A stretch of 64,000 bases of DNA from Trileptium ribeirensis (Eukaryota; Nematoda; Enoplea; Enoplida; Thoracostomopsidae), in NCBI GenBank assembly GCA_030248225.1, contig JASANE010003602.1, positions 59,795 through 123,794 of the forward strand. The letters run 5' to 3'. The position numbers and the translations under genes are program-made. The notes below the pieces were generated by a model. The model made no database searches. It saw only the letters and a list, made by a program, of their open reading frames with translations, and had not been told where the DNA came from. Position 1 is the stretch's first letter. Each line of letters opens with the position of its first letter. Of this stretch, positions 2,759 through 24,464 are shown in pieces.

Positions 2759-2786
2759 TTATCACTAAAATTTTAACTAAACTCGA

Positions 2787-2870
2787 CAGAACTCGATAGT
2801 CGAGTGGATAAGACAGAAATATCTGTAGCGGGCTTAAATTCCCCGTGCAGGATCGAAACCTAACAAGGGA
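2787..2870 (+). ncRNA. tRNA-Ser-like Pol III module in R1 copy 1
   Basis: A box-like TAGTCGAGTGG at 2797-2807 fits the TRGYNNARNNG consensus, and B box-like GATCGAAAC at about 2851-2859 fits GWTCRANNC. The order of D-arm-like GTCGAGTGGWTA, an anticodon-arm-like stem, a long variable-arm-like CGGGC..CCCCG segment and a T-arm-like region resembles eukaryotic tRNA-Ser. The acceptor stem and a canonical 7-base anticodon loop are missing, so it is not a functional tRNA. It could be a SINE-like internal promoter or a tRNA mimic within a retroelement leader. Confidence 0.5.
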
Positions 2871-5109: not shown

Positions 5110-5364
5110 CGAAAAGGGGGGGGGGCCGAAGGTGGGAATGAGCTGATTTTGCAGTCGGGGGCACAGCACATTCCCAGGTATCCTTTGACCTATCGGGGGT
5201 CCCATTCAGGAACTGTCAGAGCCCACGAGAGGGCCCTAAACCTACCCCCCGTCTTTCCTAGTCCTATGCGTCCAGTCCGTCCGTAAAACTTAGAGATTTA
5301 GCAAAATTTTACATGTCCGTCCTTGTCTGTCCTGTTTTTTGCATTGTCCTCGTGCGTAGAGTCC

Positions 5365-5450
5365 ATATATACATATATATATATATATCTATATACATAC
5401 ACACACATATATGCAATACTCATAAACACACAAACACACACTACACATGA
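5365..5450. repeat. AT/CA microsatellite
   Basis: Runs of TATA, TACATA and CACA repeats. An analogous but differently composed tract sits at the same place in R1 copy 2 (about 63855-63950). Confidence 0.75.
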
Positions 5451-5794: not shown

Positions 5795-7491
5795 GGACCC
5801 AATTTTGGGTTCCGACATGTATTAGCATACAGGGTTTCAGCGGGCTCTCCCGTTCTAACGGTTGGGCGGAGCGACGCCCGCCAGGTATCGTTGAACTCGC
5901 CTTGGAAAGACGATTCAAACGAGGGGTGATTTCCCTGCCTTAATGGCGGCGGTTAAGGGGCGCTAAAATCACGACTGATAAAGAGAGTGTCGGTAGTGGT
6001 GGGGGCGCTTTGTCGGTCGTCCCAGGTTAACGGGGCAACTGACGGAGACCCGCCGGGCATCATTGAAGATGTCTCGACGTGGCAAATGCAATGAGGGGCG
6101 ATTTGGCTACTTTTGAGTTGGGGTTAAATTTTCGGTTGGTTTGTACCCAATTTCCATCGGTATGCCAATTCGGGGGCATTTTGTCGGGTCATAGCGAGCT
6201 AGCGAGGGGTCCAGCGGAGACACGCCGTATATCGTTGTACTCGCCAGGAGCAGGCGCGTACAATGAGGGGTCGCATGAGCCTATTTATGGTCAAGGGTCA
6301 AATACAAAGTTGGTACAAACTGACGGAATTTTAGGTTGAATTTTCGTGGTGCATTATAAAACAGGGAAGTAAGCTATATAGCAGCGGGGTGACTGGTCAG
6401 ATCGAGACCCGTCTGGTCTCGTCAGATGTCTCAATGAGTAAACTAATTGGAAACACGCGTACTTTCAATCACTGATCCGATGGTTACCAGAAAAACCAGT
6501 TGATACTATGGTAGTAAGGCAATTTTGGGCGTCAAAGAATGCTATAAAAAGAAAGGTTTTGGATACGGTTGGGGCGGAAAAATAGACGTACGGCGACACG
6601 AAAATCAGGCAGTACACACACATCTACATATATATACATAGCTATATATCCATATATGCCTATATCAGGTCCACTCGGGACCATGGTCACCAGCCAAACC
6701 TAGCGTAAGTATTGGCTGTTGATTGAATGTTCACCTATTTGTCCCCAGGATATCTCGTGAAATCCTCCAGCGATTTAATTCTCTACCGAAAAGTACTCGG
6801 GGCATTTTCGCTATATACCAACCATTAGGCGGTTACAGGCCGACAAACAGGCCCGATCTCCGTTATTTCCGAATAATCGGAAACTGCCGTAACCCATTTG
6901 TTTCAACTCACTCTTGCGACCATTAAGCTATGGTTCGCTTAAACAAGGTAAACTTGATGGCCTTGATTCTGATCACTTCCCTTCCCCTTACATTGTCAAA
7001 GGCCTCCTATTCCCGGACAGTCGTAATTTTGAACTTTCAGCGGGGAACGTAGGACTATTGGTCGAGTTCCGTTCGGGTTTGCCTGTTTGATCCGGTCAAA
7101 GATTGTATTACATTCCTCGTCTTCCTAGAGTTAAACCTCCGACCTACGTCAATTCTCTCTGGGCTCACTTGAGCCGGTCCAGACATGTATGATCATACAA
7201 TAAATGGTACAGTGACAAAGGTTCATCATACATAAGACGGGCACAAAAAAATAAAAAAAAAAAAAAAGAAAAACAAGAACCAAACCCCACCAAACCTTAT
7301 ATAAATGGCAAGATGTAACAATGACAGAACATGAAAATATGCGACACAATCATCGGTCACCATGGCACCATGTGGCTTACAATGATTTATTCCCTTAAAC
7401 CATACCCTTGCTCGATTTGAGGTAGTTTGAAATGGTTTTTACGCCAGAATCTTGCGAGACTAACGTAATGGGCCGGAACTTGCCTGTTACA
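5795..7491 (-). repeat. Downstream (3') LTR
   Basis: About 1.7 kb, matching 22544-24164 with some tens of substitutions. It differs from the other LTR by an extra ~75-base A-rich segment at about 7222-7296. In element orientation it begins TGTAACAGG and ends around GGGTCC. A CA end is not obvious at the shared boundary, so that edge is uncertain by a few bases. Confidence 0.9.
7222..7296. other. A-rich segment present in only one LTR
   Basis: The left LTR carries about 75 bases absent from the right LTR at the same point (between GACAAAGG and TTATATAAATGG). It contains a long A run with a few G and T. Either this copy gained it or the other lost it after insertion. Confidence 0.7.
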
Positions 7492-8152
7492 TCTCTTATA
7501 TTTTTAAATGGAAATTTTCGGACTCAATTATTCGGGTTGGAAACAATGTTCTCTAGTTAATTTCTAATGATCAAAACTCATGCCTACACTGGGGTCTCCA
7601 ACGACTAAGGCCCTTTCAAAAAAAGGTTGTGCTAACGATTGGTAGACTATGCTCTACGATCCCAGAGTAAATTTTCCTGCTGGATTTAGAATTTGTTTTC
7701 TTTTGAAGAACTTCTAAAAAATGTGTTATTGGGCTCGAACTTAGCCAAATTCCGGCGAGTCCTATGATCCTAGCGATTTCTACATTCTGAAATGAAAAGT
7801 CCTCCTCTTATATTTTTGAGGGGGCGAAAAGGACACTACGTTTTGAAAGAATTTGCCGAATGGTCAAGAATCGCTTTGTTCAATTATTCTTGTCGTGGTG
7901 CCATGGTATATATACACAAATACGCATATGAAACGATCAGAATAGATTTAAGATAGATTATGAAATACGACATATATATATGACTGGTACATGATAATGT
8001 GACCGTAACTACCCCGTATCGTATGACCTGTTCAGGGTTACCGCAGGTGTGATGGACGGTTCGTTGTGGCAAAATACAAAAACACAAAACAAAAAAAATT
8101 TTCCCAATAGTCGGCGGTTACGCGGTCATATCAGAATTTCATCCTTATTGTT
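7492..8152 (-). other. Retroelement 3' untranslated region
   Basis: Between the last coding frame and the downstream LTR. No gene is seen. Immediately before the LTR, in element orientation, the sequence is fairly purine-rich (AAAAATATAAGAGA), consistent with a polypurine tract. Confidence 0.5.
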
Positions 8153-8725
8153 TCACTCCCAGTGGTTGGATGTTAGGTTCTGTTGCACCCACTTGTGGAA
8201 ATATCCGATATAGGGCTCGGAAATGCTAGGCTCCCCAGTTTCGCTGCTATCGGTGGTGGTCTCCCATGCGCCCGATTCTTCTAGTTCGCGTGGGTAGTCT
8301 GGCATCGATGATTTCCTCATTCTGTCGGGGAACTGCCATTTAATGTCCTGGAAAAGTTTAGTGAATTCGTCGCGCCATTCAGCATTGTCCTGTCCAATGT
8401 CCCAATGTGGAGATGGTGGGGCAATAATTGCTCGGGCCTCATTACTAAGTAGGTAGTCGAATGAGCATATGTAACGGCGCACTCGACGCATAAACATGCT
8501 GAGAGTATCCAGCAAACGACCTTCGTGCGGCTTCGATCGTAGGGCCGCCTCATATCCGCCAAGTATCATGACGGTCAGTTTGTGGCGTGGCGATGCACGT
8601 CGCCAGCCTGACTAAGAATTGCATTGTGGCTCCTGGCCATGCTATGGCGAACAACCCTTTTGATGCGGCCATGTTGACCAAGGGCGCCGCTAATGAATCG
8701 CCCAGAATCAACACCTTTGGCCATG
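8153..8725 (-). pseudogene. SGNH/GDSL-hydrolase-like domain, frameshifted
   Basis: The frame open to 8550 reads KVLILGDSLAAPL (GDS, the SGNH block I serine motif, near 8702-8694), then AWPGATMQ. A frame change near 8610 leads to HKLTVMILGGYE, which fits the next hydrophobic strand and Gly-rich block of this fold, and then about 130 further residues to a stop at 8153. SGNH hydrolases are Ser-Asp-His esterases/lipases, and related esterase domains occur in ORF1 of some CR1 LINEs. Here the domain directly follows the NADAR-like domain. I do not see a certain C-terminal DxxH motif, so catalytic competence of the ancestor is uncertain. The break is consistent with decay. Confidence 0.6.
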
Positions 8726-8734
8726 AGGCGGTGT

Positions 8735-9250
8735 CGTAGCGGAGGAAGGTTCGAACTTCCTCTAACAGGCGACCCATCACGTTATGGCATAGTCGCGGTC
8801 GTTTACCGAAAGTGATGTCTTCCGGCCCTAGGCCAATTCCCCACAAGGAATCGGACCGATTTGCCTCGAGCAATTGGGCATGCCTTGTGGTGAGTAGGGC
8901 ATTCCGGAACCGAGGAATTTTGAATTTTTCCAGGAGCACAGTCCGCATGAGATGAGGGGGTATCGGGCGGAGGCGCTCGGTTGTCTCTGGATCGAGGAAC
9001 TTTTGCTTGTTCCGGCGAGAGATGGCTTTGACGTCTCGAGCTCTTTCAAGTCCGAAATGTCTTGTTTCGCCTGTTCCTCGTCGAATAAATACGTGACGAA
9101 GAGTTGGTATCCTTGCTCCGTCGAGGTGTATTCGATGGGGTACTGGTTTATGGTTTGGCCTAGCGGTGCCAAGTTTGAGAGTTCCGGTCAGTGCGTGCAT
9201 TTGGACTGGAACGCTTCAATCGGCGCACCATAGTTGATAGTGTAATACGG
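8735..9250 (-). pseudogene. NADAR-like (YbiA/DUF1768) domain, broken by a stop and a frameshift
   Basis: After an in-frame TGA (9190-9188) the frame reads LSNLAPLGQTINQ and then YTSTEQGYQ (about 9130-9104), matching the N-terminal Tyr-x-Ser-x-Glu-x-x-x-Gln motif of NADAR proteins. A frame change near 9040 continues into LLEANRSDSLWGIGL and NVMGRLLEEVR (about 8873-8751), the two C-terminal family signatures. NADAR proteins cleave N-glycosidic bonds; known members act on ADP-ribosylated guanine in DNA or on riboflavin-pathway intermediates. The domain follows the integrase tail in the same frame series, so it probably was the C-terminal part of the polyprotein or a distal ORF. The match rests on motif recognition only. 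Confidence 0.7.
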
Positions 9251-9415
9251 CACCCGAGGTTGCGGAAGTTGTTCCATGTCGTTGCGTCCTTCGAATTGGT
9301 GATTCCTGCAATAGTATTCATCGCCATTAATGGCGGTTCTTGAGGGAATTTGGCGGTGGGAGCTCGAGTCTTCTGGGGTGTTTCTTGAGTGATTTAAACG
9401 TTCCAACCGTCGCTA
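9191..9415 (-). pseudogene. Linker between Pol tail and NADAR-like domain
   Basis: An open stretch between in-frame stops at 9415-9413 (TAG) and 9190-9188 (TGA). It has no ATG of its own at the start and reads as a continuation of the same frame: a charged linker, then YYTINYGAPIEAF, which may be the first strand of the NADAR fold. It supports an originally continuous coding region from integrase to NADAR. Confidence 0.45.
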
Positions 9416-9820
9416 GCAAGGCGGTTGTCTAGGAGGTCGGACCACCTCCAACCCAATGTCTTCGGGATGTAATTGTCTTTGTCCACTGCCCTCGTCAGGT
9501 TCCAAGTCCGGATGTGTAGATAACATGTCCTCGATGTCCTGTTCGTCAGAGATGTCCCTAAAAGGTTCGAACATGTCGTGTCGTGCACGAGCACTACCAG
9601 ATGGATAATCCATCGGCATGACAGGATCACGATGTCGAGTCGGTGGAGCGAGGGGTATAGTCCGTCGAGTTGGTGCCGTAGTCTGGGGCTTTGGCTTTAC
9701 ACTCCGGGGGTCGAGGCGTGGTATTACGACACGAGCTTCTTCGCCGTGTGGTATATACTCTTCATACCAACGACAACGGTCCCTGGCTTGCCCATGTGGC
9801 TGTCGGCGAATAGGTTGGGG
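9413..9820 (-). pseudogene. Distal proline/arginine-rich Pol tail in shifted frame
   Basis: Near a run of six C residues (about 9815-9822 on the + strand) the coding sense moves from the integrase frame to the next one. The new frame stays open for about 135 codons to a TAG at 9415-9413, with composition like the preceding tail (Pro, Arg, acidic). An indel in the homopolymer is the simplest explanation, though programmed frameshifting cannot be excluded. Confidence 0.4.
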
Positions 9821-12173
9821 GGCTCCTCCCTCTCCTTAGCTTGGCGTACAGAGGGTCCCATCTCAGGAGATCCCTCACTTTCCTCCGTTGGGGGTCAAGT
9901 TCTAAGTGGAGCCTTCGACGTGGTCCCGGTAAGAGTTGGATAAGGGGTATCTCATCTTCCTCGTCCTCCCAACTAACTTGTGATTGAGCTTTGGCTGAGG
10001 TTTGTCTACGTGGTTTGGCGCGTGATGGATGAGTTGGAACTCCCTTGAGGGTGGAGGGAACGCTGCGCGGCGGCGCTCTTCCCTTCCTCCCGGTAGAGGA
10101 GCCCTTGGTTGATTCGCCAATGGTTGATATTGTCTCCTCGTCCTTTTCTACAGTCCGTGGTCGTAATCGTTTCGGTCGACCGCCTTCCGAAGACTCGGAA
10201 GGTCGGCTCTGTTTACTTGTGCTTTGTTTACCCGCTTCTCGTTGTCGAGCTAAGCTTTCAATAAATTCTTCGACAATCCCGTCGGCTGCTATTTGGTCTT
10301 CCGAGGGGATGTATTGTATGGGGGATCCTCTTATGTATTCCATTAGTTCAGTTGCATCCTGTATTTCTCCTCGGGCACGAGCGGCTTCCTCTCGTTTCCT
10401 CCTTATTTCCTGCATTTCCCATTCCCACTGTGCTAGCTCATGTTGTCTCTGGATGGTCCATCGACCAAAGGATGGTACTTGTGGGCCCTTAGTTCCACGC
10501 TCCGCTAGGGGTGACAATAGGGGAGGGATTTTCCACCGGTGGGGTGGCGTAGGGGAATCGATTGTTTCAGGTGACGTGGTCTCCGAACCTACGGATGATA
10601 CTGGTTCATTAGTCGGTGTAGGGGGTTGGACTTGCTTTCGTCGCGGTTTAGGCTTAGGTTTTAGTGTTGGTGCGGGTTCCAGTGGAGGTTGGCTGGTTAC
10701 TGGGACGGATTGCGCGGGTTGTGGTCTAGGAGGGGTGTAATATGGTGTGAGCCATTCGTCTGGAACATAGTCCTCTATTGTGGCTTCGAATCCCAGTGGC
10801 ATTAGGGGAGTATGTGGAAGTGGTGTGGGTGGAGCGGAGTAGGCCTGACGGGGTTTGGGGTATGGTTGTTCATAAGGTGTTATGGGTTCACGATAAGTGT
10901 GGTATGGTGTCACTGGCTTGTCTAATTCGGTCACTAAGCGTTGTGTCTGAGGGCTGCGGGATGTTTGAGTGGCGATAGCGGCTCGACGTTGGGCAGGCGT
11001 AAGAGGCGAGGTTTGGACAGCGTGTTCAACGGCTGACGTTGGAGATGTAGCTCCTTCTGGAGTGTGGGGCGAGTGTTCGTCCGGGTCCTGTGAAGCGAGT
11101 AATTCCACGAGACCTAGGTCGTTAACGTTGAATGGTCGTAGTGCACGACCGTCCTCTGAGCGTTTCACCGTTAGAGGTCTGGTAGGCTCATCAGTTCGAA
11201 CTGATCGTTCCTGTTCTCGTAGGGTTACTGGGGCAGTATGTTGTCCATACTCAGGCGAGAAAGTACCAGGAGGTTTGTCAAGTGCGTAAGGTAACTTAGC
11301 GGGGTCTAGGGTAGCGAGTTCCTGTGATATAGCGGGCCATTCGGTGTCTGGAGTTCTGTCAGGGTCACAAAGGGGAAGTCTGTTTTGTTGCGGAGCTCCG
11401 GAGGAGCCTTGAGCCTGAGTGGTCAGCTGTTCTACAGCGGCGCGGTGTATGTCCGCCTGAGCTTGCGTGTATTCCAAGTTAGGTTCTCCAATTTCTACGC
11501 TAGCGACGTCGGATACACCATCAATCTCCTGGCGCAACCGGTCGACTGCTTCTGGGTCTGCAGCCTGTAATTCCCTGGCGAAATACTTGTCAGCGAGGAT
11601 AGTTTCTCCAGGTTCCTGCAGTGCAGCCTCAATATATGAGGGAGGGACTGCTTTAAGTAAATCAGCCATGTTGGGGAAGCTGCTTAGCGGGCGATAGCAC
11701 GGTTTGGTGCGGTTTATGTGAACTACATGATCGGAAGCATTAGGTTGACCGGGGAGTTTAACACAAATGCAAGGCAGCATTAATTTAGTAATCTGGTATG
11801 GTCCACACCAGCTACGTTCTAATTTACGTGATAAACCTGGGGTGGTATAGTATCGATAGACCCATACATGGTCATTAACTCGGTAGTCCAGGACCTTGAT
11901 CTTACGATTGTAGTAGCGTTTTCTGTATTCCCGAGCAGACTGCATGCACTGGTAGGCTCGGTCCCTGATGGTGGCTAACCACCGTTGTACATTAGCACGA
12001 TACGCTTCTGCTCCGGGGTAGCGTTCCCAATCAGTTTGTGTTTCGATTCCACCCGGTACTCCGTGCATGAGCATGAATGGTGGATAGTGCGTGGAAGCGT
12101 GTACTGCTGAATTGTAGGACATGATGCAATATGGCAAGACTTCGTGCCATGTAGTATGGTCTTTTTCAGGTAA
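9762..12173 (-). CDS. pol: Integrase C-terminal domain plus long proline-rich tail
   Basis: Continues in the same frame after the TAG at 12176-12174. The first ~60 codons complete the integrase catalytic core region (Tyr/Ser-rich helix, HASTHYPPFMLMHG). A basic region and an SH3-like GPY/F module (SWCGPYQITKL, about residue 128-141 of this segment) follow. The remaining ~600 residues are unusual: a helical charged segment, then long Pro/Thr/Ser-rich and Arg/Glu-rich disordered sequence with repeated PTP and PHTP phrases. Such tails exist in some Gypsy elements but are rarely this long. The segment has no initiation codon at its upstream edge, so it is a piece of the Pol polyprotein, not a separate gene. 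Confidence 0.85.
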   Translation of the reverse strand, partial: LPEKDHTTWHEVLPYCIMSYNSAVHASTHYPPFMLMHGVPGGIETQTDWERYPGAEAYRANVQRWLATIRDRAYQCMQSAREYRKRYYNRKIKVLDYRVNDHVWVYRYYTTPGLSRKLERSWCGPYQITKLMLPCICVKLPGQPNASDHVVHINRTKPCYRPLSSFPNMADLLKAVPPSYIEAALQEPGETILADKYFARELQAADPEAVDRLRQEIDGVSDVASVEIGEPNLEYTQAQADIHRAAVEQLTTQAQGSSGAPQQNRLPLCDPDRTPDTEWPAISQELATLDPAKLPYALDKPPGTFSPEYGQHTAPVTLREQERSVRTDEPTRPLTVKRSEDGRALRPFNVNDLGLVELLASQDPDEHSPHTPEGATSPTSAVEHAVQTSPLTPAQRRAAIATQTSRSPQTQRLVTELDKPVTPYHTYREPITPYEQPYPKPRQAYSAPPTPLPHTPLMPLGFEATIEDYVPDEWLTPYYTPPRPQPAQSVPVTSQPPLEPAPTLKPKPKPRRKQVQPPTPTNEPVSSVGSETTSPETIDSPTPPHRWKIPPLLSPLAERGTKGPQVPSFGRWTIQRQHELAQWEWEMQEIRRKREEAARARGEIQDATELMEYIRGSPIQYIPSEDQIAADGIVEEFIESLARQREAGKQSTSKQSRPSESSEGGRPKRLRPRTVEKDEETISTIGESTKGSSTGRKGRAPPRSVPSTLKGVPTHPSRAKPRRQTSAKAQSQVSWEDEEDEIPLIQLLPGPRRRLHLELDPQRRKVRDLLRWDPLYAKLRRGRSPPTYSPTATWASQGPLSLV

Positions 12174-13856
12174 CTATTTCTGTTCTACCCGTAACAGAAA
12201 TAATAGGGTACGGTTAAAGCGTTCGGTTTCTCCATTTGCCTTCGGGTTGTAACTGAGCGTTTCGCGTTTAAATTTATGTAGTCTAGCGCACAAGGCCTCC
12301 ATTACCTCGGAGACGAAACATCCTCCTCGGTCTGAGACTAGCTCCTCGGGTGCACCGTAGCGGCACACCACGTCTTCGACGAAGACCTTGGCTACACTCC
12401 TAGCGGTTTGGTCCGGTAGAGCAGCGGCAATTACTAGTTTTGTGAACTGGTCGATAAAGGCAATTACATACCTGTTTCCGTTTCGGGATAGCACCCGAGT
12501 GTCCAGTATGTCGACAAACATGCGATGCATGGGTGCGCTAGCCAGCGGGTTCTCTCCGAGCGAGGCCGGAACATTTTGTGGTAGATTGCGTGATCGCTGG
12601 CAGAGTACGCACCTCTTTACATATTCGTCTACATCCTTACCCATGGTTTCCCAATAGTAAAATTGTTTAAGTTTGCTCAGAAATCGATCTCTACCTGGAT
12701 GTCCACCGAATAACGTGTCGTGTTCATGTTTAAGTATCTGTCGGATAAGCAGTCTGGGTACGCATAGTTTGGGTTTATGGTCGTTTGGCATGATGGGATG
12801 CAAGTATAGAATGGCCGTGTCGGGGCAGAGTCTGTAATGGTGAGCTTCTAGTTTGAGGGCGGTCGCTGCCTTTTCGTCGGTTGGCGACTGTCGTGTATGT
12901 AAATACCACCAAATAGGGCCAAATTGTTTATCCCTACGTTGAATGTATGGTAAGTAATTGAGAAGGTTCCTCCCCTCGTATTGTTGAAAGTGTGATAAGT
13001 ATATGTGTTCTCCAGTGTCATAAACCTGTTCAGGGCGTTGTAGTTGTATTCGTGGTCCACATGCGTAGGCAACCCTAATTAGTGTATCAAATTCCTCTAC
13101 TTCGGGTAAACCTACATATCTCTGTCTAACATTTGTCGATAGCATCCGTGGTCTAGCGGGTTCAGGTGTACCGGCCGTGGCACGGGTCGAGCTTTCACTC
13201 GCCGCACCAGGAGCAGGCGGTGTCGGAGCGGTCGAGGGTTCCTGAAGTTGTGGGGGTCTGGCGGGTGGTTCGGGTGCTGAAGAGGGTCCGTGGATCGGTT
13301 CACCAGTGGATTCTGGCGGTCCGGGGGCAGTCGTCCGTCTCCAGGGTACCTCAACTCCTTCGGGCCATGGGTCATCTACGTCTCCACAGAAGATAAAACG
13401 GGTGGGATCTGGTAAAGGGTCGTGATCGGATCCTCCAAACATACGATAGAAACGTTCCCGAACACACTCAGGTGGTAGAGAGACGGGAGCGTCCGGGGGA
13501 AGTCCCAAGAGTTGTCGAGTAAGTCGTTTCCAAACTTCTTCAGTGGGAAATCGGCGGGGCGGTTTAGCCGGAGCTTTGCCTTTACGGCGATCCTGTCCTT
13601 TGACAGCTACAGCAACCTTTCGAGGATGGTCCTGTTCGTCCTGCTCCGCTTCGTCCGAAGAGCAAGAAAATTCCACGTCATGTCGGGGATCGCGTGAAAG
13701 TCCGTCAGCATTGGCATTAGCCTTACCTGGTCGGTATTCGATGTTAAAGCCACCGAATTCCATCAGTAATTCGTTACGCCATTGAGCTAGTCGCAAATTT
13801 CGCGGTGGTCTCTCGAACAGTGCTTTAAGGGGCTTATGGTCAGTTTCGACATGAAA
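12174..13856 (-). CDS. pol: RNase H end, proline-rich linker and integrase core
   Basis: Follows the TAA at 13859-13857 in the same frame. It completes RNase H (TDHKPL, then IEYRPGKANANADGLSR), then has about 300 residues of linker, partly Pro/Ala-rich, between RNase H and integrase, much longer than usual. Counting from the codon at 13796, integrase has the HHCC zinc site (H359, H366, C396, C399) and the D,D-35-E catalytic triad (D429, D489, E525). It ends at a TAG (12176-12174) beyond the catalytic Glu, after which the frame continues. Integrase would insert the cDNA into host DNA. With two stops the polyprotein could not be made intact from this copy. Confidence 0.93.
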   Translation of the reverse strand, partial: FHVETDHKPLKALFERPPRNLRLAQWRNELLMEFGGFNIEYRPGKANANADGLSRDPRHDVEFSCSSDEAEQDEQDHPRKVAVAVKGQDRRKGKAPAKPPRRFPTEEVWKRLTRQLLGLPPDAPVSLPPECVRERFYRMFGGSDHDPLPDPTRFIFCGDVDDPWPEGVEVPWRRTTAPGPPESTGEPIHGPSSAPEPPARPPQLQEPSTAPTPPAPGAASESSTRATAGTPEPARPRMLSTNVRQRYVGLPEVEEFDTLIRVAYACGPRIQLQRPEQVYDTGEHIYLSHFQQYEGRNLLNYLPYIQRRDKQFGPIWWYLHTRQSPTDEKAATALKLEAHHYRLCPDTAILYLHPIMPNDHKPKLCVPRLLIRQILKHEHDTLFGGHPGRDRFLSKLKQFYYWETMGKDVDEYVKRCVLCQRSRNLPQNVPASLGENPLASAPMHRMFVDILDTRVLSRNGNRYVIAFIDQFTKLVIAAALPDQTARSVAKVFVEDVVCRYGAPEELVSDRGGCFVSEVMEALCARLHKFKRETLSYNPKANGETERFNRTLLFLLRVEQK

Positions 13857-16800
13857 TTAATGTCCAAGTAGGTAGTGTCTGAAGTGTAAGGCGGCCCATC
13901 GTATGGCCAGAGCCTCAGTCTCTATGGCAGGATATCGGCGCTGATAGTCCACCAGCGACTTGCTCGCGTACGCAATAGGCAATGTCCCTTTGTCGGTCTT
14001 TTGCGAAAGCACAGCCCCTAAGGCATATCCGGAAGCGTCCGTTTGGAGTATGAAAGGTTTAGAAAAGTCCGGATATGTGAGTAACGGTTCTTGTACCAAG
14101 GCCTTACGTAGTTTTCCGAATGCTACCTCGCATTGCGGTGTCCACTTAAATTCACTGTACTTTCGTCGAAGTGCGTTGAGCGGTTCGCAAGTTTCAGAGT
14201 AATGTGGTATAAATTTATGATAGTATCCTACAAGTCCTAGGAAACTTTGTAACTGTTTGAGAGTCTCCGGTCGTTTGTAATTGTCTATTGCGGCGGTTTT
14301 CTCGGGGTCTGGTTTGACTCCTTCAGAACTGATAATATGTCCCAGGTATTTTAATTGTTTCTGTCCGAATTGGCGCTTTGAAGGTTTTAATTTAAGATTT
14401 GCCTTACGGAACCTATCAAACACCGTTATCAAGTCCGCTAGATGTTGTTCAAATGTGGGTGAAAAGACTAGTATGTCATCTATGTAGATGAGGCATCGTT
14501 CCCATTCTAGGCCCTTTAATATAATTGACATGCACCTTTGAAAGGCGCCTGGTGAAGAGTTCAGTCCGAAGGGTAGGACGTTATATTCATACTGTCCGTA
14601 GACAGTGACGAAGGAGGTTTTCTCCTTGGTCTCTGGGTCCAGTTCTAATTGCCAGAAACATTTGTTAAGATCTAAACTGGACATAAATTTGGTGTTTCGG
14701 AGACATCCCAATATGTCATCTATGCGGGATAATGGGTATAAATCACGCTCTGCCACTACGTTGAGCTTACGGAAGTCGACGCACAATCGTAAGGTACCGT
14801 CACTTTTGGTGACGTAAACTATGGGAGAACCCCAAGGTGAATCTGGTGGCGTTATTAGACCTGCTTCTACCATATTGTTTAATTCCTCACGCAAGGGCTC
14901 TCGCAATGAATGTGCTAGGCGGTATGGCACCTGTTTAATAGGTCTTGCGTCTCCAGTGACTATCCTGTGCTGGTGTACGCCACACCTTCCTAAATCAAAC
15001 GGGTGTACACTGAATATGTTTGCGTTTTCAGAGATGGTTGTTTTCAACTGTTTAAGCTCGAAAGGGTTAAGGGTTGTTTGTCCGAAATCTATTTTACTCA
15101 AAACTTGTATGGATCGTTCTGTGTCAATTGTCTTCTTTTGTTCACTTATAATTTGGACGACATTATCTCGGGTAACCCCGATATTGTTGCATTGCTTATT
15201 GCGTCTCGGCGGGTCTAGTTGGAGTAGACGCTTGTTACTGTCGTATAAAAATTCGACCTCGTTGTCGTCGAGCATCTCGATATGTCCTATTGTCTGTCCG
15301 GCGTGTATGGCAACGGGAAAGTTCCCAAAGTTCACCAGTGCTATTGGGATCATGCGTTGGCCAGTGAGTACCAGAGAGTGGGCGATGGCAACGTCCCTAA
15401 TAAAGGGATCGGGCACGAATAAGGCTTGACCTGTCGGTGGTTGTGTGATTTCTGGGATGGCGTTGATGAACAACTCGGTGTTCGGTGGTACCTGAGAGTA
15501 TTTCCTGGTTACGACGTTGATGACTGGCGGTCGGTAGTCCCCTTGGTCGGCCAAAGGTGACGAGCAGTTTTCAGTTCCGTTAGATAGATCCAGGCAGCGG
15601 TCTTTGAAGTTTATGGCGACATATGGTAGTAATGCCATAAAGTCGGTACCTAAGATGCATTCGTACGGAGTGCCTGTTGTTACCTGAAAGTCGCACGGTG
15701 TACCTAACGATCCTATTGTGATCGGTGCTTTTACTACTCCGTTGATTGTCAACTCTTGTTGCGTAGCCGATACTACACGGGTAGTGCTCGTGTCGCGAGG
15801 GACCAGTCCTAAACGGGCAGCCAGTGCTTGGGACATGATTGAATCGTCGGCTCCAGTGTCTACAAGAGTCATGACTGGGGTGCCAAGGATGGTTGCATTA
15901 ATAAGCAATGGAGTGTTGCCTGCATTCATAGTGTTTAATTGTCTGGTAAACACACCTTGGCGAGGTCCACGAGGTAAATCGCGACTGGGTGCGACAAATA
16001 GTTCGTCGTCCTCGATGAAAACAAGTTCTTCCTCAGATGTGTTACGCGATGTTAATAGCCTGTTCGAGCGACATGGGGCACGGCTGGACGCAACGGACAC
16101 GCGCGGCGTTCCCGAAGGCCCAACCGTGACCTCAGTCGGCGAGGCTCTATCTGTATGAGTGAAGTTGTCTTCCGCAGGTGGGGCACTCGGTAGTCGGTGC
16201 TTCGCTCTAATCCACCGGATCGCTTTCTTAGGCTTACTATCGGTCCTAATTAGTCGTCCACGACATGGAAACCACCGGGGGATATAGTAGCCGTACTTAG
16301 GTGGGACCTTGCATTTGGTCATGAAGTAGATCAGGCTGATCAGTCCTACAACGACGGTGATGAGGAAGTAGGGCAAGAATCCCGGGTATTCCACAGCGGG
16401 GAGATTAACCACGCGACGTACTTGATCCTTAGCTATCTGCGCAACCCGCAAATTGATAACCTTGGCGTTGTCGAGTGAGTCCCACGTCAAAGGTCTTAGT
16501 TTGATACCGGATAACCGGTCAATAGTAATATTGGGTCCAAATTTTATCGTAATTTTCTCGGGTTTCAGCATGCTAGTGAGTACGATTGACCCTATGACTA
16601 ACTGAGTGTAGTTCCCGTGTGGGAACCACAGGACTCCATTAGGTGGAACCTTTATTATTTTACCCATCGTCACGTGAGCTAGTTGTCTCCGATTTGTCAG
16701 TATAACCTCAGGTTCATTAGTCCGAATTAATACTCCTTGTATAGTCGTGTGTACGGACGTGTCATTGGCAAGTGGACCTATCAGGGAACGGTTTCTGCAT

Positions 16801-18080
16801 GTATGTTTAATGGTCTCAGGCACATGTTCGCCTGCAATAATCCATTCTAAACAATTTGTACTATGATCAGTGATCAGCGCGTGTGGTTCACAGAAAGCGA
16901 TTCCCGGTCTTTGCTTGCATGCTCCCAGATTCAGTGATTCGAAACGAATGTGCCCTAAGCGGGCAGCGTATTGGGGTAGCGGCAGCCTCTGCTGCGTCAG
17001 CGTGGCAGGTGCGTTCCAGCCGGTATTGTAGATTCGAAAATACGGCCGAACATCTTTGCGCATCAGCAATGGTAATTGCAAAATGAATCCGAAGCGAAAT
17101 GCGGTTAAATCTACGCTCACAGGCATGACGCGGCCAAACTGATAGGCGAGGCTAGGCTCGCGCATGAGGATAGTCTTGGAAATGCGTGGGTCCATGAAAA
17201 TTAACCGTCGTAACATAACGACATCGATGACGGCGGGAAACAATTCGCCGTTCAGCATGGACTCCATTATAGCTTGTACCGACGAGCGCATATTGGCTCG
17301 AAGGATGTGATCTATTAGCTGGTGGTGTACGTGTGCGATCTCTTTCTGATCGGCACACCTAACCTGTTCGATCATGGAGACTACCTCTTGCATGCTATGG
17401 TGTAGGAATGCGTAAATGTCCTCATTGGCGCGGGTCAGTTGCCTAATGGCTTTAGTATTCCGAAAAGAGACATCGTTTGTCTCGCGCATGAATTTCTCGA
17501 GGATAGTTACCTGTTGACGAACATTGTTGATATGTACTCCATTGGCAAAAGCCATTCCCAGGCCTAGGAAACCTGAGACAGCACCTGCAGCGGCGGCAAT
17601 CAAGCTGGCAAAGCGCTTTTCTCTATTATTCGTAAGGTCGCATAGTTGCTCGTTTGCGACGCAAAAAGAGTGCACAAGCAGCGAGTAATAATTGGTGTTC
17701 AGCACGCCATGATAGGCGTCATCCAATTCGCGTTCCAAAGCGCTTAAGGTTTCGTGAAGCTGCGGATATTCGGTGCAGTTGACCTTCCGACAGCAGTCCG
17801 CGCGGCATGATCCGTTCGCTTCATAAGGTGGGCAGAATTTACTCACATAAGGATCGGACTTACGTTCCCAATCGCGAAGTGATAACTGCAATACCACTGG
17901 CAAATGCGTTGTCTGGTCGGAGGTGACCTCCAAGCCCTGGAGCTCGATGACCACACCCACCTGACGATTGACAAAAGCACCTAAGCGTGAGATTGAATCA
18001 CTAAATGGCGAGAGCGTCGCGCGCGTAGAACTGAGCGGTGAGAGCCAAAGTAATAATAGGATTGTACATACCCTCCACAT
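13857..18080 (-). CDS. env-pol: Envelope glycoprotein fused in frame to protease, RT and RNase H
   Basis: A single 1407-codon frame with a genuine ATG at 18080. Residues 1-22 form a signal peptide. Residues 23-156 are a Cys-rich surface-like part ending in REKR (153-156), a furin-type site. Residues 157-176 (FASLIAAAAGAVSGFLGLGM) resemble a class I fusion peptide, followed by a helical region (to ~270), a further ectodomain with N-glycosylation sites, and a transmembrane segment at 567-588. After a cytoplasmic linker comes an aspartic protease (LVDTGADDS, 739-747), RT (about 1040-1260, YIDDILVF at 1199-1206) and RNase H (TDAS near 1347), cut by a TAA. Env placed before and in frame with PR-RT is opposite to errantiviruses and retroviruses. 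The start overlaps the preceding frame by about 100 bases, suggesting separate initiation or splicing. Confidence 0.92.
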   Translation of the reverse strand: MWRVCTILLLLWLSPLSSTRATLSPFSDSISRLGAFVNRQVGVVIELQGLEVTSDQTTHLPVVLQLSLRDWERKSDPYVSKFCPPYEANGSCRADCCRKVNCTEYPQLHETLSALERELDDAYHGVLNTNYYSLLVHSFCVANEQLCDLTNNREKRFASLIAAAAGAVSGFLGLGMAFANGVHINNVRQQVTILEKFMRETNDVSFRNTKAIRQLTRANEDIYAFLHHSMQEVVSMIEQVRCADQKEIAHVHHQLIDHILRANMRSSVQAIMESMLNGELFPAVIDVVMLRRLIFMDPRISKTILMREPSLAYQFGRVMPVSVDLTAFRFGFILQLPLLMRKDVRPYFRIYNTGWNAPATLTQQRLPLPQYAARLGHIRFESLNLGACKQRPGIAFCEPHALITDHSTNCLEWIIAGEHVPETIKHTCRNRSLIGPLANDTSVHTTIQGVLIRTNEPEVILTNRRQLAHVTMGKIIKVPPNGVLWFPHGNYTQLVIGSIVLTSMLKPEKITIKFGPNITIDRLSGIKLRPLTWDSLDNAKVINLRVAQIAKDQVRRVVNLPAVEYPGFLPYFLITVVVGLISLIYFMTKCKVPPKYGYYIPRWFPCRGRLIRTDSKPKKAIRWIRAKHRLPSAPPAEDNFTHTDRASPTEVTVGPSGTPRVSVASSRAPCRSNRLLTSRNTSEEELVFIEDDELFVAPSRDLPRGPRQGVFTRQLNTMNAGNTPLLINATILGTPVMTLVDTGADDSIMSQALAARLGLVPRDTSTTRVVSATQQELTINGVVKAPITIGSLGTPCDFQVTTGTPYECILGTDFMALLPYVAINFKDRCLDLSNGTENCSSPLADQGDYRPPVINVVTRKYSQVPPNTELFINAIPEITQPPTGQALFVPDPFIRDVAIAHSLVLTGQRMIPIALVNFGNFPVAIHAGQTIGHIEMLDDNEVEFLYDSNKRLLQLDPPRRNKQCNNIGVTRDNVVQIISEQKKTIDTERSIQVLSKIDFGQTTLNPFELKQLKTTISENANIFSVHPFDLGRCGVHQHRIVTGDARPIKQVPYRLAHSLREPLREELNNMVEAGLITPPDSPWGSPIVYVTKSDGTLRLCVDFRKLNVVAERDLYPLSRIDDILGCLRNTKFMSSLDLNKCFWQLELDPETKEKTSFVTVYGQYEYNVLPFGLNSSPGAFQRCMSIILKGLEWERCLIYIDDILVFSPTFEQHLADLITVFDRFRKANLKLKPSKRQFGQKQLKYLGHIISSEGVKPDPEKTAAIDNYKRPETLKQLQSFLGLVGYYHKFIPHYSETCEPLNALRRKYSEFKWTPQCEVAFGKLRKALVQEPLLTYPDFSKPFILQTDASGYALGAVLSQKTDKGTLPIAYASKSLVDYQRRYPAIETEALAIRWAALHFRHYLLGH

Positions 18081-20044
18081 ACCTGAAGGCTCGGTGAGGA
18101 GGATCGTACCCCGTTTCGATTGGGTTGCCTCGTGATCTCGTTACGTGCAGCTTGTTCCGTAGAGTCGGTTTTAGTCTCTTCGTCGCTCGTTTCCGTGTCA
18201 CTCGACTTAGTTATGCTTTCTTGCTGGGCGGAGTCGCCATCGGTGTTATCCTCCGACTCTTCGTCAGATGAGTCGAGGTAAGCGGCTAATGCTGCGGTTA
18301 ATTGTTCGTCCAGATTCGGGACAGAACAGTCGGTGTCATCGTACGGAAAGAAGCATAGTTCCGAAATTAAACGGTCCCTGCCCAACTTTAGTCCAGCAGA
18401 CGTGTCTCCTTCTGTCTCAAGCAGTCCAGCAATGTCGGAGCACCGCAAAAGTCTTAAGCGTGCGCTTAGCAGTACTAGTCGAGCAAGTCGGTGGGTTTCG
18501 TCGTCAAATTCCATATTACCCATTGCTTGGTCAACAAAGAAGTTAATCGGAACACCACGTGTATCTTGGTTCCGATAGATGAATTCGATTAGATAGGGCG
18601 CCTCGCACAAGAGGTCGTGTAACTCGAGGTTCGCCTCGCGAAAAGTTTTCTGCATTCTGGCCGACTGAATTCCGACATAGAAAGGCCAATGCGGTGCGAC
18701 ATATCCATCCGGGAGGATGGACGCGCACGCGGTGCTCAGCGTGCCGTCGTAAGTCCACCTTCCTCGTTGACCGAAAAAGTAGCAGCGTGAGCCTATGTCC
18801 CGCGAATCTCTTGTGTGGCGTTCCTGGCACTGTCGACATACCGGATCCCTACTCAACTCCACCTCGAATTCTCTCTCAATAACCTGTAGGAGCGTGTGGC
18901 CATTCACGCATTGGCCCACCAGTTCTATGAAAGATTCCAACGAAGCAAGAGTTACGGGACCAAGATACATCCCGGTCATACAGTGTCCAATTGGGGAAGC
19001 CATGCCTAATATACTGCTTAACATGGCAGCGTCTCGCTGCAAGGCGGGGTGAGTGCTAACCTCAAAACGGAGCTCGAAAATTCGGCTCAAATTGTTCAGT
19101 TGTTCCATTACAATTGTTACTCTCCGATAAAAGAGAGCCTGCGGTTGCAATGCCAACGGTTGTCCGAAGTCAGCATTGATTTCACTAGCCCTAAAGTTAA
19201 TTGGTATAAGTCCCTCAGCTGACTCGTTATGCGCATCCTCGGTCAATTCAATTCGAGGATATTGATAAGCTGCAGTCTCGGTATGATTTGCTGTCATAGT
19301 GAACAGTGTATCAGTCCCAAGGATTCGGTTGCGTTCCTCATCCGTCATGGCTCTAACTCGTCCAAGTTCTATTGGCGTATTATTAGGGAGACAAAGTCCA
19401 GACATGTCCAATAATTGTTCGTCCAGTTGGTGTATACGTTCGTCATTAGCTTCTCGTATAAAGTTAAGCAAATTCTCTTGTCCCATACACACGTCCGAGT
19501 CTTCACTAGTCACGCTCACTGATTCCTCCGAATTACCCGGGGACATACTTGGTCTCCCTTCGACGGATTCCTCAGTGGAAGTACCTACCTCGTTTGGTTT
19601 ACCCGAATTACCCGAGGGCATACTAGGCGCCTCTTCGACGGGTCCCAAGATATCGCTAGAGATGTCAGCCAACGTATCGGTGGAGCTACCTAAATTACCC
19701 AGGCGCGTACAAGGCGTCCCTTCGATAGGGTCTCCACGAACGTTCTCGACCTGTGGATCCGAACTCATCTCATTCACACTTCCCGTAGCGATACTGCCAC
19801 TATCGCTGCCTTCACTCAGATCGCTTTCTCCGGCAGCACCATCTCTTTTCTCGGAGCGTATAGACAATTGACTGGCTAGCAGGCTTAAATCAATGCCATC
19901 ATCCGATGGTGCACGCGGGAGTTCGTTGTTGTTTCCACGACGCACTTCCCATACCCCTTCACTATGCCACTCTCGTGCGTCAGGTCTGGGTTCGCGTCGG
20001 TACCAGTCGGCATTCGGATCCACCCAATTGGCCCAAAATTCTTC
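17981..20044 (-). CDS. Gag-position protein, long C-terminal segment (unknown fold)
   Basis: About 680 codons open after the TAA at 20047-20045, in the same frame as the segment before it and with no ATG at its edge. The first ~170 residues are Ser/Glu/Asp/Gly-rich and disordered, with imperfect repeats (SMPSGNSG, SMSPGNSE). The middle (about 230-560) looks globular, mostly helical, and contains C-x2-C (CRQCQERH). The C-terminal part is again acidic and Ser-rich. I see no CCHC zinc knuckle, no major homology region and no other family I recognise. Position between leader and env/pol suggests a gag-equivalent. Its end overlaps the env start by about 100 bases in another frame. Confidence 0.6.
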   Translation of the reverse strand, partial: EEFWANWVDPNADWYRREPRPDAREWHSEGVWEVRRGNNNELPRAPSDDGIDLSLLASQLSIRSEKRDGAAGESDLSEGSDSGSIATGSVNEMSSDPQVENVRGDPIEGTPCTRLGNLGSSTDTLADISSDILGPVEEAPSMPSGNSGKPNEVGTSTEESVEGRPSMSPGNSEESVSVTSEDSDVCMGQENLLNFIREANDERIHQLDEQLLDMSGLCLPNNTPIELGRVRAMTDEERNRILGTDTLFTMTANHTETAAYQYPRIELTEDAHNESAEGLIPINFRASEINADFGQPLALQPQALFYRRVTIVMEQLNNLSRIFELRFEVSTHPALQRDAAMLSSILGMASPIGHCMTGMYLGPVTLASLESFIELVGQCVNGHTLLQVIEREFEVELSRDPVCRQCQERHTRDSRDIGSRCYFFGQRGRWTYDGTLSTACASILPDGYVAPHWPFYVGIQSARMQKTFREANLELHDLLCEAPYLIEFIYRNQDTRGVPINFFVDQAMGNMEFDDETHRLARLVLLSARLRLLRCSDIAGLLETEGDTSAGLKLGRDRLISELCFFPYDDTDCSVPNLDEQLTAALAAYLDSSDEESEDNTDGDSAQQESITKSSDTETSDEETKTDSTEQAARNEITRQPNRNGVRSSSPSLQVCGGYVQSYYYFGSHRSVLRARRSRHLVIQSHA
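18070..18085 (-). promoter_or_regulatory. Splice-donor-like sequence at the env start
   Basis: In element orientation CAGGTATGT spans the env ATG, fitting the CAG|GTATGT donor consensus; a second GGTATGT follows about 10 bases on. It could mark spliced transcripts, or be chance, since an ATG after GT gives this match easily. Confidence 0.2.
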
Positions 20045-20941
20045 TTAATCCATCATACGTTCCTCATCCATCTCGTCATCACTGCGCTCGTCGCAACTAT
20101 CCCCAGGCTCCTCTGGCGCAATGGTCACGCCGTATTCAAGCTCATCCTCTAGTTCATTTCCGTCATTAGCACATTCCTGTGGGGTACCCCGATTTAGATT
20201 ACATATTTTCGCTTCGCTAACATAGTTCGCATCGCTCGCTGCGGATCCGCTTCGTTCATATAGGAGTTCATCCAACTCCTTCAATTTATCCGGTTCAACA
20301 ATTTCAACACACTCAGCGTTATCCTTCACGCTGACTTCACTACAAGATTCATTGAAAAAACTTAGCTCATTGCAAGTAACGTCGCTGCGCGCTTCAACGA
20401 CGGTGGGCGCGACGGAAGCCTCACAATGCGATGGACAGTCTTTATTTGCCACCCTGCCATCTACATCCCCGTACCTGGGCAGACCCCGGGCAATACTTTC
20501 AGCCCCAACGACCATACCCGCTTCATTGGCGCGAACGGCCGCGAACCCGTCGCTACCTCTGCTTGGGTACGGGTGACAAGGGCGGCCCCGGTCAGCATCA
20601 AGGAAGGACCCAATGACCGTGGAACCCCTTGCCAATGAGGTCGGGAAAGTCACCTCAAGTCCATCAGTAGCATACTTCGCCGGCTCGAAGTAGCATTCAA
20701 TTACATCAACATCACTTCCATTATTATCTTCCAATAATTCACTAAGACTACAAGCGCGTCCTAACTTAGGCAAGTCAATACACTCATACGACACACAATT
20801 CTCATCATCACACAAGGGACGACCCGCGCGGCAGTCCGGCCCACATACTACATCATACGACCTATAATTTAGAACGGAACTAGGGCTAGGCGGCCTTGAT
20901 GAGACGTCTTCATCGTCCAACCTAGCCTCCCTCGTCCCTGG
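20045..20941 (-). CDS. Gag-position protein, middle segment (acidic)
   Basis: About 290 codons between in-frame stops at 20944-20942 (TGA) and 20047-20045 (TAA), starting without an ATG. Asp/Glu-rich with scattered Cys; it contains PPSPSSVLN near the start and ends in a run of Asp, Glu and Met. No domain is recognised. The frame is shared with the segments on both sides, so this is part of one precursor broken by stops. Confidence 0.5.
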   Translation of the reverse strand, partial: PGTREARLDDEDVSSRPPSPSSVLNYRSYDVVCGPDCRAGRPLCDDENCVSYECIDLPKLGRACSLSELLEDNNGSDVDVIECYFEPAKYATDGLEVTFPTSLARGSTVIGSFLDADRGRPCHPYPSRGSDGFAAVRANEAGMVVGAESIARGLPRYGDVDGRVANKDCPSHCEASVAPTVVEARSDVTCNELSFFNESCSEVSVKDNAECVEIVEPDKLKELDELLYERSGSAASDANYVSEAKICNLNRGTPQECANDGNELEDELEYGVTIAPEEPGDSCDERSDDEMDEERMMD

Positions 20942-21372: not shown

Positions 21373-21900
21373 TTAGTCGACCCATCGCTCGCCTCGCTGT
21401 TCGCCATTTACTTCGCTCGCGGATATATATACACGTGGGTCAACACCCGCGCTGGGTGCGTCCACACATAACATAGACAATCCCTCTCCCAAGTATCCCT
21501 CTTTTTGGTGTTTTGTATTTTCTTTGCTATATACAGTGTTAGCAAATTCAATTCCGTATTGTTCGTCGTCCAAGTCCCTAGGGCACAATTCCATAAGTCC
21601 GGGGCTGTCCATACCCTGAAATAGATCTCGACTCCGTGGAAGACGCGCGGCATCAGCCCACGAAGTGGTCGTGATCACGTTCAGGTGTCTCTCAACAAGT
21701 CCTTCCATAGTCTCAAAGTCGTCCATGTCGTCGTGTCTATTTATCAAGTATCCGTCATCGTCGTATAATGGTTCGTCAGTCGTCGCGATAGCGTTCACCC
21801 GTCCAGTCGGTTCACCATGCCCTAATTTACCTTGAATCATACCCAGCTCACGACTAAGCACTTCTAATCGGTGGGTGGTAGCTGGGCTAGGAAATGCGAA
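21373..21900 (-). CDS. First open frame of the retroelement (unknown)
   Basis: About 175 codons, open from just after a TAA near 21916; the first ATG in frame is at 21840. The protein is acidic, with DEPLYDDDGYLINRHDDMDD, a WADAARLPRSRDLF stretch and a hydrophobic patch near its end. It is in a different frame from the segments at 21170-17981 and is separated from them by about 200 bases, so a frameshift may lie between. Its position, first after the leader, is where a gag N-terminus would start. No family is recognised. Confidence 0.4.
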   Translation of the reverse strand, partial: FAFPSPATTHRLEVLSRELGMIQGKLGHGEPTGRVNAIATTDEPLYDDDGYLINRHDDMDDFETMEGLVERHLNVITTTSWADAARLPRSRDLFQGMDSPGLMELCPRDLDDEQYGIEFANTVYSKENTKHQKEGYLGEGLSMLCVDAPSAGVDPRVYISASEVNGEQRGERWVD

Positions 21901-22543
21901 TCCGAAAATGCGCGTTTAGTATAAATGAAACCCAACAATCCAAGTCAGAGAGGTAACGAAATTACTTCCCTCGGCACAAGCAACAATTCTCCTTTAAATG
22001 CACAACAGCGCCAATCAACAGTACCTAAATAGAGTACGACAAATCGAACCAGAACGTTACGTGAAAATGGTTATAATACACTAAGCAAAACAATGTAGAT
22101 GCGTTAGCTTTACCTAGCAGTAATGATAAGTACAATAACGTTAGGCAAAAGCAAGTACAAATAAAGTAAAAACGAATAGAGTTAAATTTACAGTGTTCAA
22201 ATGTCCTCCAATGAATGTCCAACGGGCGGCGGTCGTTCCAAAAGCACGGCAACCAATTGTCTATTTAGTGTTCCGATAAAGCGACTCGTAAATACCCACA
22301 GCGCAACGGAAACGAATGACATCGATGGCTTTGACAACCGAACTCGACGACAGTACGATAGGCGAAATAGCACCGCGCGTCGGAGCAGGTGAATGTTACC
22401 GTCGATAAGATTAGCAGGTGACTAGGCCGACTCGATACGGCGAAATCCCCAACAGTTAATGAGCACTGCTAGTTGAGTCACGTTAGTCCCAGCTGGCGAT
22501 TATCAAGTCAAGCGTCCGTACGATGCGGCTTTCCGAAATAAAT
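21901..22543 (-). other. Retroelement leader
   Basis: Between the upstream LTR and the first open frame. I looked for a primer-binding site starting TGG directly after the LTR edge and did not find a clear one: the sequence after GGGTCC is ATTTATTTCGGAAAG. No coding region is convincing. Confidence 0.5.
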
Positions 22544-24164
22544 GGACCCAATTTTGGGTTCCGACATGTATTAGCATACAGGGTTTTAGCGGGCTCTCCC
22601 GCGCTAACGGTTGGGCAGAGCGACGCCCGCCGGGTATCGTTGAACTCGCCTTGGAAAGGCGATTCAAACGAGGGGTGATTTCCCTGCCTTAATGGCGGCG
22701 GTTAAGGGGCGCTAAAATCACGACTGATAAAGAGAGTGTCGGTAGTGGTGGGGGCGCTTTGTCGGCCGTCCCGGGTTAACGAGGAAACTGACGGAGACCC
22801 GCCGGGCATCATTGAAGATGTCTCGACGTGGCGAATGCAATGAGGGGCGATTTGGCTACTTTTGAGTTGGGGTTAAATTTTCGGTTGGTTTGTACCCAAT
22901 TTCCATCGGTATGCCAATTCGGTGGCATTTTGTCGGGTCATAGCGAGCTAGCGAGGGGTCCAGCGGAGACACGCCGTATATCGTTGTACTCGCCAGGAGC
23001 AGGCGCGTACAATGAGGGGTCGCATGAGCCTATTTATGGTCAAGGGTCAAATACAAAGTTGGTACAAACTGACGGAATTTTAGGTTGAATTTTCGTGGTG
23101 CATTATAAAACAGGGAAGTAAGCTATATAGCAGCGGGGTGACTGGTCAGATCGAGACCCGTCTGGTCTCGTCAGATGTCTCAATGAGTAAACTAATTGGA
23201 AACACGCGTACTTTCAATCACTGATCCGATGGTTACCAGAAAAACCAGTTGATACTATGGTAGTAAGGCAATTTTGGGCGTCAAAGAATGCTATAAAAAG
23301 AAAGGTTTTGGATACGGTTGGGGCGGAAAAATAGACGTACGGCGACACGAAAATCAGGCAGTACACACACATCTACATATATATACATAGCTATATATCC
23401 ATATATGCCTATATCAGGTCCACTCGGGACCATGGTCACCAGCCAAACCTAGCGTAAGTATTGGCTGTTGATTGAATGTTCACCTATTTGTCCCCAGGAT
23501 ATCTCGTGAAATCCTCCAGCGATTTAATTCTCTACCGAAAAGTACTCGGGGCATTTTCGCGAAATACCAACCATTAGGCGGTTACGGGCCGACAAACAGG
23601 CCCGATGTCCTTTATTTCCGAATAATCGGAAACTGTCGTAACCCATTTGTTTCAGCTCACTCTTGCGACCATTAAGCTATGGTTCCCTTAAACCAGGTAA
23701 ACTTGATGGTCTTGATTCTGATCACTTCCCTTCCCCTTAGATTGTCAAAGACCTCCTATTCCCGGACAGTCGTAATTTTGAACTTTCAGCGGGGAACGTA
23801 GGGCTATTGGTCGAGTTCCGTTCGGGTTTGTCTGTTTGATCCGGTCAAAGATTGTATTACATTCCTCGTCTTCCTAGAGTTAGACTTCCGACCTACGTCA
23901 ATTCTCTCTGGGCTCACTTGAGCCGGTCCAGACATGTATGATCATACAATAAATGGTACAGTGACAAAGGTTATATAAATGGCAAGATGTAACAATGACA
24001 GAACATGAAAATATGCGACACAATCATCGGTCACCATGGCACCATGCGGCTTACAATGATTTATTCCCTTAAACCATAGCCTTGCTCGATTTGAGGTAGT
24101 TTGAAATGGTTCTGACGCCAGAATCTTGCGAGACTAACGTAACGGCCGGAACGGGCCTGTTACA
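22544..24164 (-). repeat. Upstream (5') LTR
   Basis: About 1.62 kb, paired with 5795-7491. In element orientation it begins TGTAACAGG at 24164. An AATAAA-type signal lies close to the start (about 24057-24062). A short AT microsatellite (about 23371-23412) is shared with the other LTR. Confidence 0.9.
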
Positions 24165-24464
24165 TATACAATGCCAGTTTCGTCCATGCGCTCCCTACGC
24201 AAAGGTTTAAGCGACATGGTTTATGGGATACAATGAAATAGCATAGATATTTTCAAATTTGACTTAGCTAATTTTCCCGCCTTTTTTAAACCATTGTTCC
24301 ACTACAGGGTGTTGTAGACACCATAGTTTAATGTACACGGTGTTCGCGACACCATTATTTGTGCTGAATAGTATAGCCTTCCGACTACCATGCACTATGG
24401 TATGGTCGTGATCATACAGTGACAAATCTTCCACATGGCTAGCGTTTTATAACGTAAACGCCGC
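24165..24464. other. Spacer between retroelement and inverted R1 copy
   Basis: No gene. It contains the second copy of the paired palindrome module (24305-24356). Confidence 0.5.
24305..24356. repeat. Paired palindrome module (copy b)
   Basis: Reverse complement of the module at 714-766, with substitutions but the same order and spacing of the two GGTGT..ACACC palindromes. Confidence 0.5.

Follow-up and report, generated by a model that had tools for sequence, protein, structure and literature searches.

What does a gene that joins a NADAR domain to an SGNH-like domain do at the 3′ end of a retroelement? The question arises in a 64,000-nucleotide stretch of the genome of the nematode Trileptium ribeirensis (assembly GCA_030248225.1, contig JASANE010003602.1, forward-strand positions 59,795 to 123,794; the whole stretch is called the window hereafter), where a reading made from the letters alone (the sequence-only reading) had placed both domains at the end of a long terminal repeat (LTR) retroelement and had suggested a counter-defence against ADP-ribosylation, or a repair activity on nucleic acid, plus an esterase. 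The explanation that we favour, tentatively and at slightly less than an even chance, is that the element encodes a two-domain NADAR-SGNH-like protein that is kept by purifying selection and predicted to protect the element from host ADP-ribosylation.

All of the motifs on which the sequence-only reading relied were found on the minus strand, in open frame pieces of the window: YTSTEQGYQ in the piece with the first NADAR half, and LLEANRSDSLWGIGL, NVMGRLLEEVR, LILGDSLA and WPGATMQ in the piece with the second NADAR half and SGNH-like blocks I and II (Table 1). These two pieces and a third map in order onto a natural open copy of the gene, at residues 31-78, 81-235 and 231-376 of 377 and with 90, 90 and 74% identity, and residues 1-30 of the open copy match window sequence just past a stop. 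Thus, the gene extends slightly beyond the limits first given for it. The second piece matched the second half of the Pfam NADAR profile PF08719 (E=2.6e-11, 44.5 bits against a cut-off of 35.1), and the N-terminal piece by itself gave no NADAR match in Pfam. Three open copies matched from position 10 or 11 to the end of the 163-position profile at 60.6, 61.1 and 62 bits against the same cut-off (E=2.9e-16, 2.1e-16 and 1.1e-16). Furthermore, the NCBIfam models for the riboflavin-intermediate N-glycosidase (TIGR02464, YbiA-type; 3e-13) and for a NADAR anti-phage protein (2e-7) matched below their respective cut-offs, an unnamed PHROG matched over the NADAR part, and the best solved relative was the Phytophthora nicotianae NADAR, PDB 8BAU (6.3e-5). 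We therefore assign this half to the NADAR family on the strength of the profile match.

We searched for the NADAR-SGNH-like module in the assembly that holds the window (687 Mb, 20,229 contigs) and scored the best 150 of 2736 first-look candidates, among them that of the window. The module sequence was present in all 150, the match was stop-free in 136, and by our own count 137 of the other 149 were 83-92% identical to the window piece. A DNA query spanning the end of pol and the module, scored in 37 of 825 candidates including the window's own place, showed the pol tail and the module to be uninterrupted in 27 of 36 other places, in agreement with the position at the 3′ end of an LTR retroelement that had been proposed. 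With the env-like part as query, 70 of 2637 candidates were scored, and at least 31 of the 69 copies besides the window's own were accompanied by a listed module copy that shares their contig and strand and lies downstream, at about 9.0 kb in 30 copies and at 9.6 kb in one; none of the 69 had a module copy on the opposite strand among the matches listed, and the linkage count is a lower bound. In dozens of copies, then, the gene comes after the pol tail, and its distance from the env-like part hardly varies.

Selection on the gene was estimated from 22 fetched copies, 16 of which carried both motifs in one open frame according to a script. The ratio of nonsynonymous to synonymous substitution rates (dN/dS; Nei-Gojobori, means over usable pairs of the 16 open copies, which were chosen mainly for their open frames and whose pairs are not independent) was 0.057 for the NADAR domain (dS 0.58) and 0.066 for the SGNH-like domain (dS 0.82). 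The tail gave 0.16, and the 41 codons that precede a methionine near codon 42 of the open frame gave 0.81. When the same DNA was read in shifted frames, the ratios over both domains were 1.6 to 4.2. Constraint is thus absent before this methionine and strong across both domains, and since the leader is near-neutral while both domains are constrained, the protein most likely starts there and both domains matter to the element. With 149 other scored matches and dN/dS near 0.06, the association is more than chance, and the gene reads as a working gene of the element.

For the SGNH-like half, neither Pfam, NCBIfam and PHROGs nor a sequence search of the PDB returned an SGNH match. Its assignment rests on the GDS and PGAT motifs and on weak fold matches: SGNH hydrolases topped the Foldseek lists for two low-confidence AlphaFold models (mean predicted local distance difference test scores of 42.7 and 49.0), none of them at E <= 0.001. 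The block I serine and the block II glycine are invariant in all 16 open copies, with the serine written in three synonymous codons across copies. The position of the block III asparagine is occupied by tyrosine in 16/16 copies, the candidate histidines vary (present in 13/16 and 15/16), and none stands in a DxxH setting (asparagine and histidine positions were placed by eye). Thus, profile searches on the translated frames bore out the NADAR domain above the Pfam cut-off and left the SGNH-like domain with its motifs and its kept serine and glycine, and the esterase label is unsupported because the catalytic asparagine and histidine are not kept.

NADAR genes also occur elsewhere in this genome. 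A family search scored 150 of 2317 candidates, all above the cut-off, and 28 loci were read. In a tree, five of the 28 form one clade, and in four of these five an open reading frame (ORF) of 1128-1180 amino acids encoding a superfamily 1 (SF1) helicase, with a zinc-finger start recognized by eye, lies directly upstream of NADAR. At one of them, L027, the adjacent locus L051 carries an env-like part, protease, reverse transcriptase (RT), RNase H and integrase, followed by the helicase and NADAR. LTRs of this element were not found in the stretches compared; we class it as an env-pol LTR element related to that in the window, with a helicase. The other 23 loci look Polinton/Maverick-like, those tested with Pfam being given here by locus and the rest assigned by similarity only. 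By Pfam, an A32-type packaging ATPase adjoins NADAR in L003, L004, L011 and L024, and an integrase (rve) with a chromodomain does so in L010, L011 and L025 (rve below its cut-off in L025), so both the packaging ATPase and the retroviral-type integrase of Polintons are found among these NADAR loci. A TATA-binding-protein gene (PF00352) adjoins NADAR in L004, L011 and L024 (1.1e-32, 2.1e-25 and 5.5e-22, respectively). NADAR dN/dS was 0.05-0.13 in the Polinton-like and LTR-helicase groups (2 of 10 pairs usable in the helicase group). The NADAR clade of the window is set apart in the tree by a long branch of 3.5 changes per column.

What the window's NADAR might do depends on its active site, which we numbered after the P. 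nicotianae enzyme (PMC11543638; here and below, statements on published work refer to the portions of each paper that were available). The counterparts of E43, R79, E125, D130 and W133 are invariant in 16/16 open copies, and both ribose-binding glutamates (E43, and E125 of the YbiA type) are thereby retained in all of them. The R93 counterpart is unsure, an invariant arginine lying one place off. Tested NADARs take ADP-ribose off guanine (PMC11543638, PMC11125620). In the explanation that we favour, the protein would act on ADP-ribose or a similar ribosyl adduct, either binding it or taking it off; its target may be element RNA or cDNA, or a host signal; and the SGNH-like half, without its active-site asparagine and histidine, would serve as a binding or targeting module rather than as an esterase. 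Because two other mobile-element families also keep NADAR, shielding of the elements from host defence is likely, and family and pattern together likely point to a mechanism that counters ADP-ribosylation. The sequence-only reading is supported in part: its NADAR does belong to the element and is under selection, and the NADARs of two further mobile-element families fit the suggested counter-defence.

Several observations weigh against this explanation. The counterpart of K50 is valine in 16/16 copies and lysine in all 27 other NADARs of the same genome that entered the alignment. K50 contacts the pyrophosphate and adenine of ADP-ribose, and its counterpart in the Escherichia coli C7 NADAR, K95, is needed for efficient hydrolysis (PMC11543638). 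The W89 counterpart is not tryptophan. Ten NADARs of a single Polinton-like subgroup (L001-L003, L009, L013, L019, L022, L024-L026) have asparagine or tyrosine in place of the E125 counterpart and keep the lysine, and thus the look of a standard hydrolase is not universal among the selected NADARs here. None of the 120 listed pol relatives contained PF08719, as is expected of a gene that occupies a separate ORF. The missing lysine is the strongest objection to the simplest form of a counter-ADP-ribosylation mechanism, and it lowers the claim to a standard hydrolase. The ribose side is therefore preserved and the phosphate grip altered. Three readings follow: the domain may carry out the same reaction while gripping the phosphate differently, it may act on a different N-ribosyl substrate, or it may only bind.

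Binding only would make the protein a nucleoprotein or membrane-targeting accessory, in which both domains are non-catalytic and their only task, while particles are assembled or transported, is to bind nucleic acid, nucleotides or lipid, comparable to the SGNH-bearing ORF1 of the long interspersed nuclear elements (LINEs) CR1, L2 and RTEX. This we consider possible but rather unlikely. K50 is lost in the NADAR half and asparagine and histidine are lost in the SGNH-like half, yet both are selected; the ORF1 proteins of Tx1 LINEs hold NADAR in a structural position (PMC12477816), and GDSL derivatives without catalytic residues are found in Athena-L elements (PMC5408684). However, invariance of E43, E125, D130 and W133 exceeds the needs of binding alone, and the block I serine is held invariant through three synonymous codons. 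A wider form of the counter-ADP-ribosylation explanation, that NADAR is a common tool of this genome's mobile elements and that the host restricts them by ADP-ribosylating nucleic acid, which would be a so far undescribed eukaryotic defence, strikes us as unlikely as it stands; env-bearing LTR elements, LTR elements with an SF1 helicase and Polinton-like elements would each keep NADAR because the host ADP-ribosylates their nucleic acid. We regard as improbable that the substrate of NADAR is a different N-ribosyl compound, either a soluble nucleotide signal or a damaged cofactor, as riboflavin intermediates are for YbiA, with the altered phosphate grip reflecting a smaller substrate. Viral NADARs have been proposed to target soluble derivatives (PMC9503650). 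The retention of the ribose-holding glutamates with loss of the pyrophosphate lysine is consistent with such a substrate, as is the YbiA-type match to TIGR02464, below its cut-off as this is. YbiA itself appears to keep the lysine, however, which counts against it. Finally, a captured passenger gene without a role, as the broken gene in the window might suggest, is very improbable in view of dN/dS near 0.06 in both domains (dS about 0.6-0.8) with a near-neutral stretch just upstream, and of the 16 copies, out of 22 fetched, in which one open frame holds both motifs.

Parts of this arrangement are known from other systems. A Gypsy lineage of Ectocarpus, to which Gypsy-12_Ec32 belongs, has NADAR, and so, it seems, does ORF1 of Tx1 LINEs in Crassostrea gigas; an RNA-processing role has already been proposed for retroelement NADAR (PMC12477816). 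The window's element is likewise a retroelement with NADAR, but it differs from these in giving NADAR a 3′ gene of its own, in the fusion to an SGNH-like domain and in having an env-like part. LTR elements of bdelloid rotifers hold GDSL/SGNH ORF3 genes, as in Vesta, in which an SGNH-type gene also lies 3′ of pol; however, the available portion of that paper does not mention NADAR, and the Vesta blocks are intact whereas the window family lacks the asparagine and histidine (PMC5408684). With the DarT1-NADAR toxin-antitoxin pair and 8BAU the window family shares the ribose-binding glutamates, D130 and W133, and it differs from them in the valine for K50, in its SGNH-like partner and in that no toxin gene was seen alongside (PMC11543638). 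NADAR has also been reported in phages, giant viruses and RNA viruses in a survey of viral NAD-ADP-ribose systems (PMC9503650). There, as here, a virus-like element of eukaryotes carries NADAR as a proposed reply to host NAD/ADP-ribose systems; in contrast to the window's gene, the RNA-virus NADAR sits inside a replicase polyprotein, and the terms 'retrotranspos' and 'retroelement' do not occur in the available text. Roles of eukaryotic and animal NADARs are described as unclear (PMC11125620). No NADAR-SGNH gene and no Polinton NADAR were found in the literature searched. As to whether the pairing had been described, a point on which the sequence-only reading could not decide, each half is already known separately, the NADAR half from Gypsy elements and the SGNH half from LTR elements (PMC12477816, PMC5408684). 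As far as searched, three things are new: an LTR element with env carries the NADAR-SGNH-like fusion as a gene under selection at its 3′ end, the active sites are altered, and one genome retains NADAR in several mobile elements of unlike kinds.

The element itself spans about 18.4 kb on the minus strand (window 24165-5795). Its paired LTRs are 98.0% identical across 1429 bases and 95.1% across 202 bases, and in its own direction it comprises the 5′ LTR, pieces in the Gag position, the env-like part, aspartic protease, RT, RNase H, integrase, a proline-rich tail, the NADAR-SGNH-like gene and the 3′ LTR (Table 1). The LTRs and the order protease, RT, RNase H, integrase are those of a Ty3/Gypsy-type element. 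The window copy is defective, its long frame being interrupted and its last gene split over three frames. The env-like part shares one frame with pol, upstream of the protease; the surrounding open frame reaches up to 4749 codons in other copies and at least 4400 codons in 10 of the 70 scored copies. In retroviruses and errantiviruses env is the third gene, downstream of pol, an arrangement that this element does not have. To our knowledge, env within a giant gag-env-pol frame is unusual, and a literature search found no paper on env placed inside such a frame.

Table 1. Features of the LTR element and other NADAR loci (window positions unless a locus is named).
Feature	Position	Strand	Basis or remark
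NADAR-SGNH-like gene, broken	8157..9277	-	open copies encode 377 aa; interrupted here by a stop at about residue 30 and by two changes of frame
Frame piece, first NADAR half	8828..9187	-	first 48 residues match open copy
Frame piece, second NADAR half and SGNH-like blocks I and II	8550..9215	-	residues 59-213 match open copy; PF08719 2.6e-11
Frame piece, remaining SGNH-like domain and C-terminal tail	8153..8611	-	alignment to open copy
5′ LTR	22544..24165	-	LTR comparison; ends inspected
Upstream frame piece without known domain	21373..21915	-	
Upstream frame piece without known domain	20045..20941	-	
Upstream frame piece, putative Gag position	17981..20044	-	no Pfam match above cut-off
1427-aa frame: env-like part, aspartic protease, RT, RNase H	13857..18140	-	Pfam for protease, RT, RNase H; env-like part by features
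Env-like glycoprotein part	16200..18080	-	signal-like start, REKR site, membrane segment; upstream of protease
Frame piece: RNase H end, integrase zinc-binding and core domains	12174..13856	-	PF17921 8.6e-20, PF00665 1.3e-11
Frame piece: integrase end and proline-rich tail	9762..12173	-	integrase end assigned by eye; no Pfam hit
Pol tail end, directly ahead of NADAR-SGNH-like gene	9413..9835	-	86% identical to L029 pol tail
3′ LTR	5795..7492	-	LTR comparison to 5′ LTR
SF1 helicase and NADAR ORF 3′ of integrase	L014:1093-5384, L020:948-5261, L021:920-5432, L027:1137-5293		L027 beside L051
Polinton-like stretch in which a TATA-binding-protein gene adjoins NADAR	L004:1-3223, L011:447-5699, L024:4686-9999		PF00352

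A dispersed repeat of about 4.6 kb occurs in the window at 835-5412, 24467-27432 and 59351-63906. Two of its copies, 72% alike and in opposite orientation, flank the LTR element and the third lies near the window end. A piece of another reverse transcriptase (RVT_1, 1.4e-07) is located at 32195-32833 on the minus strand.

For retroelements, the SGNH-like half would add another hydrolase fold that is selected despite lost catalytic residues. For this nematode, several unlike elements each carry a NADAR, and this makes two questions testable: whether the host attaches ADP-ribose to the nucleic acid of invaders as a mark, and whether the elements remove or hide it.
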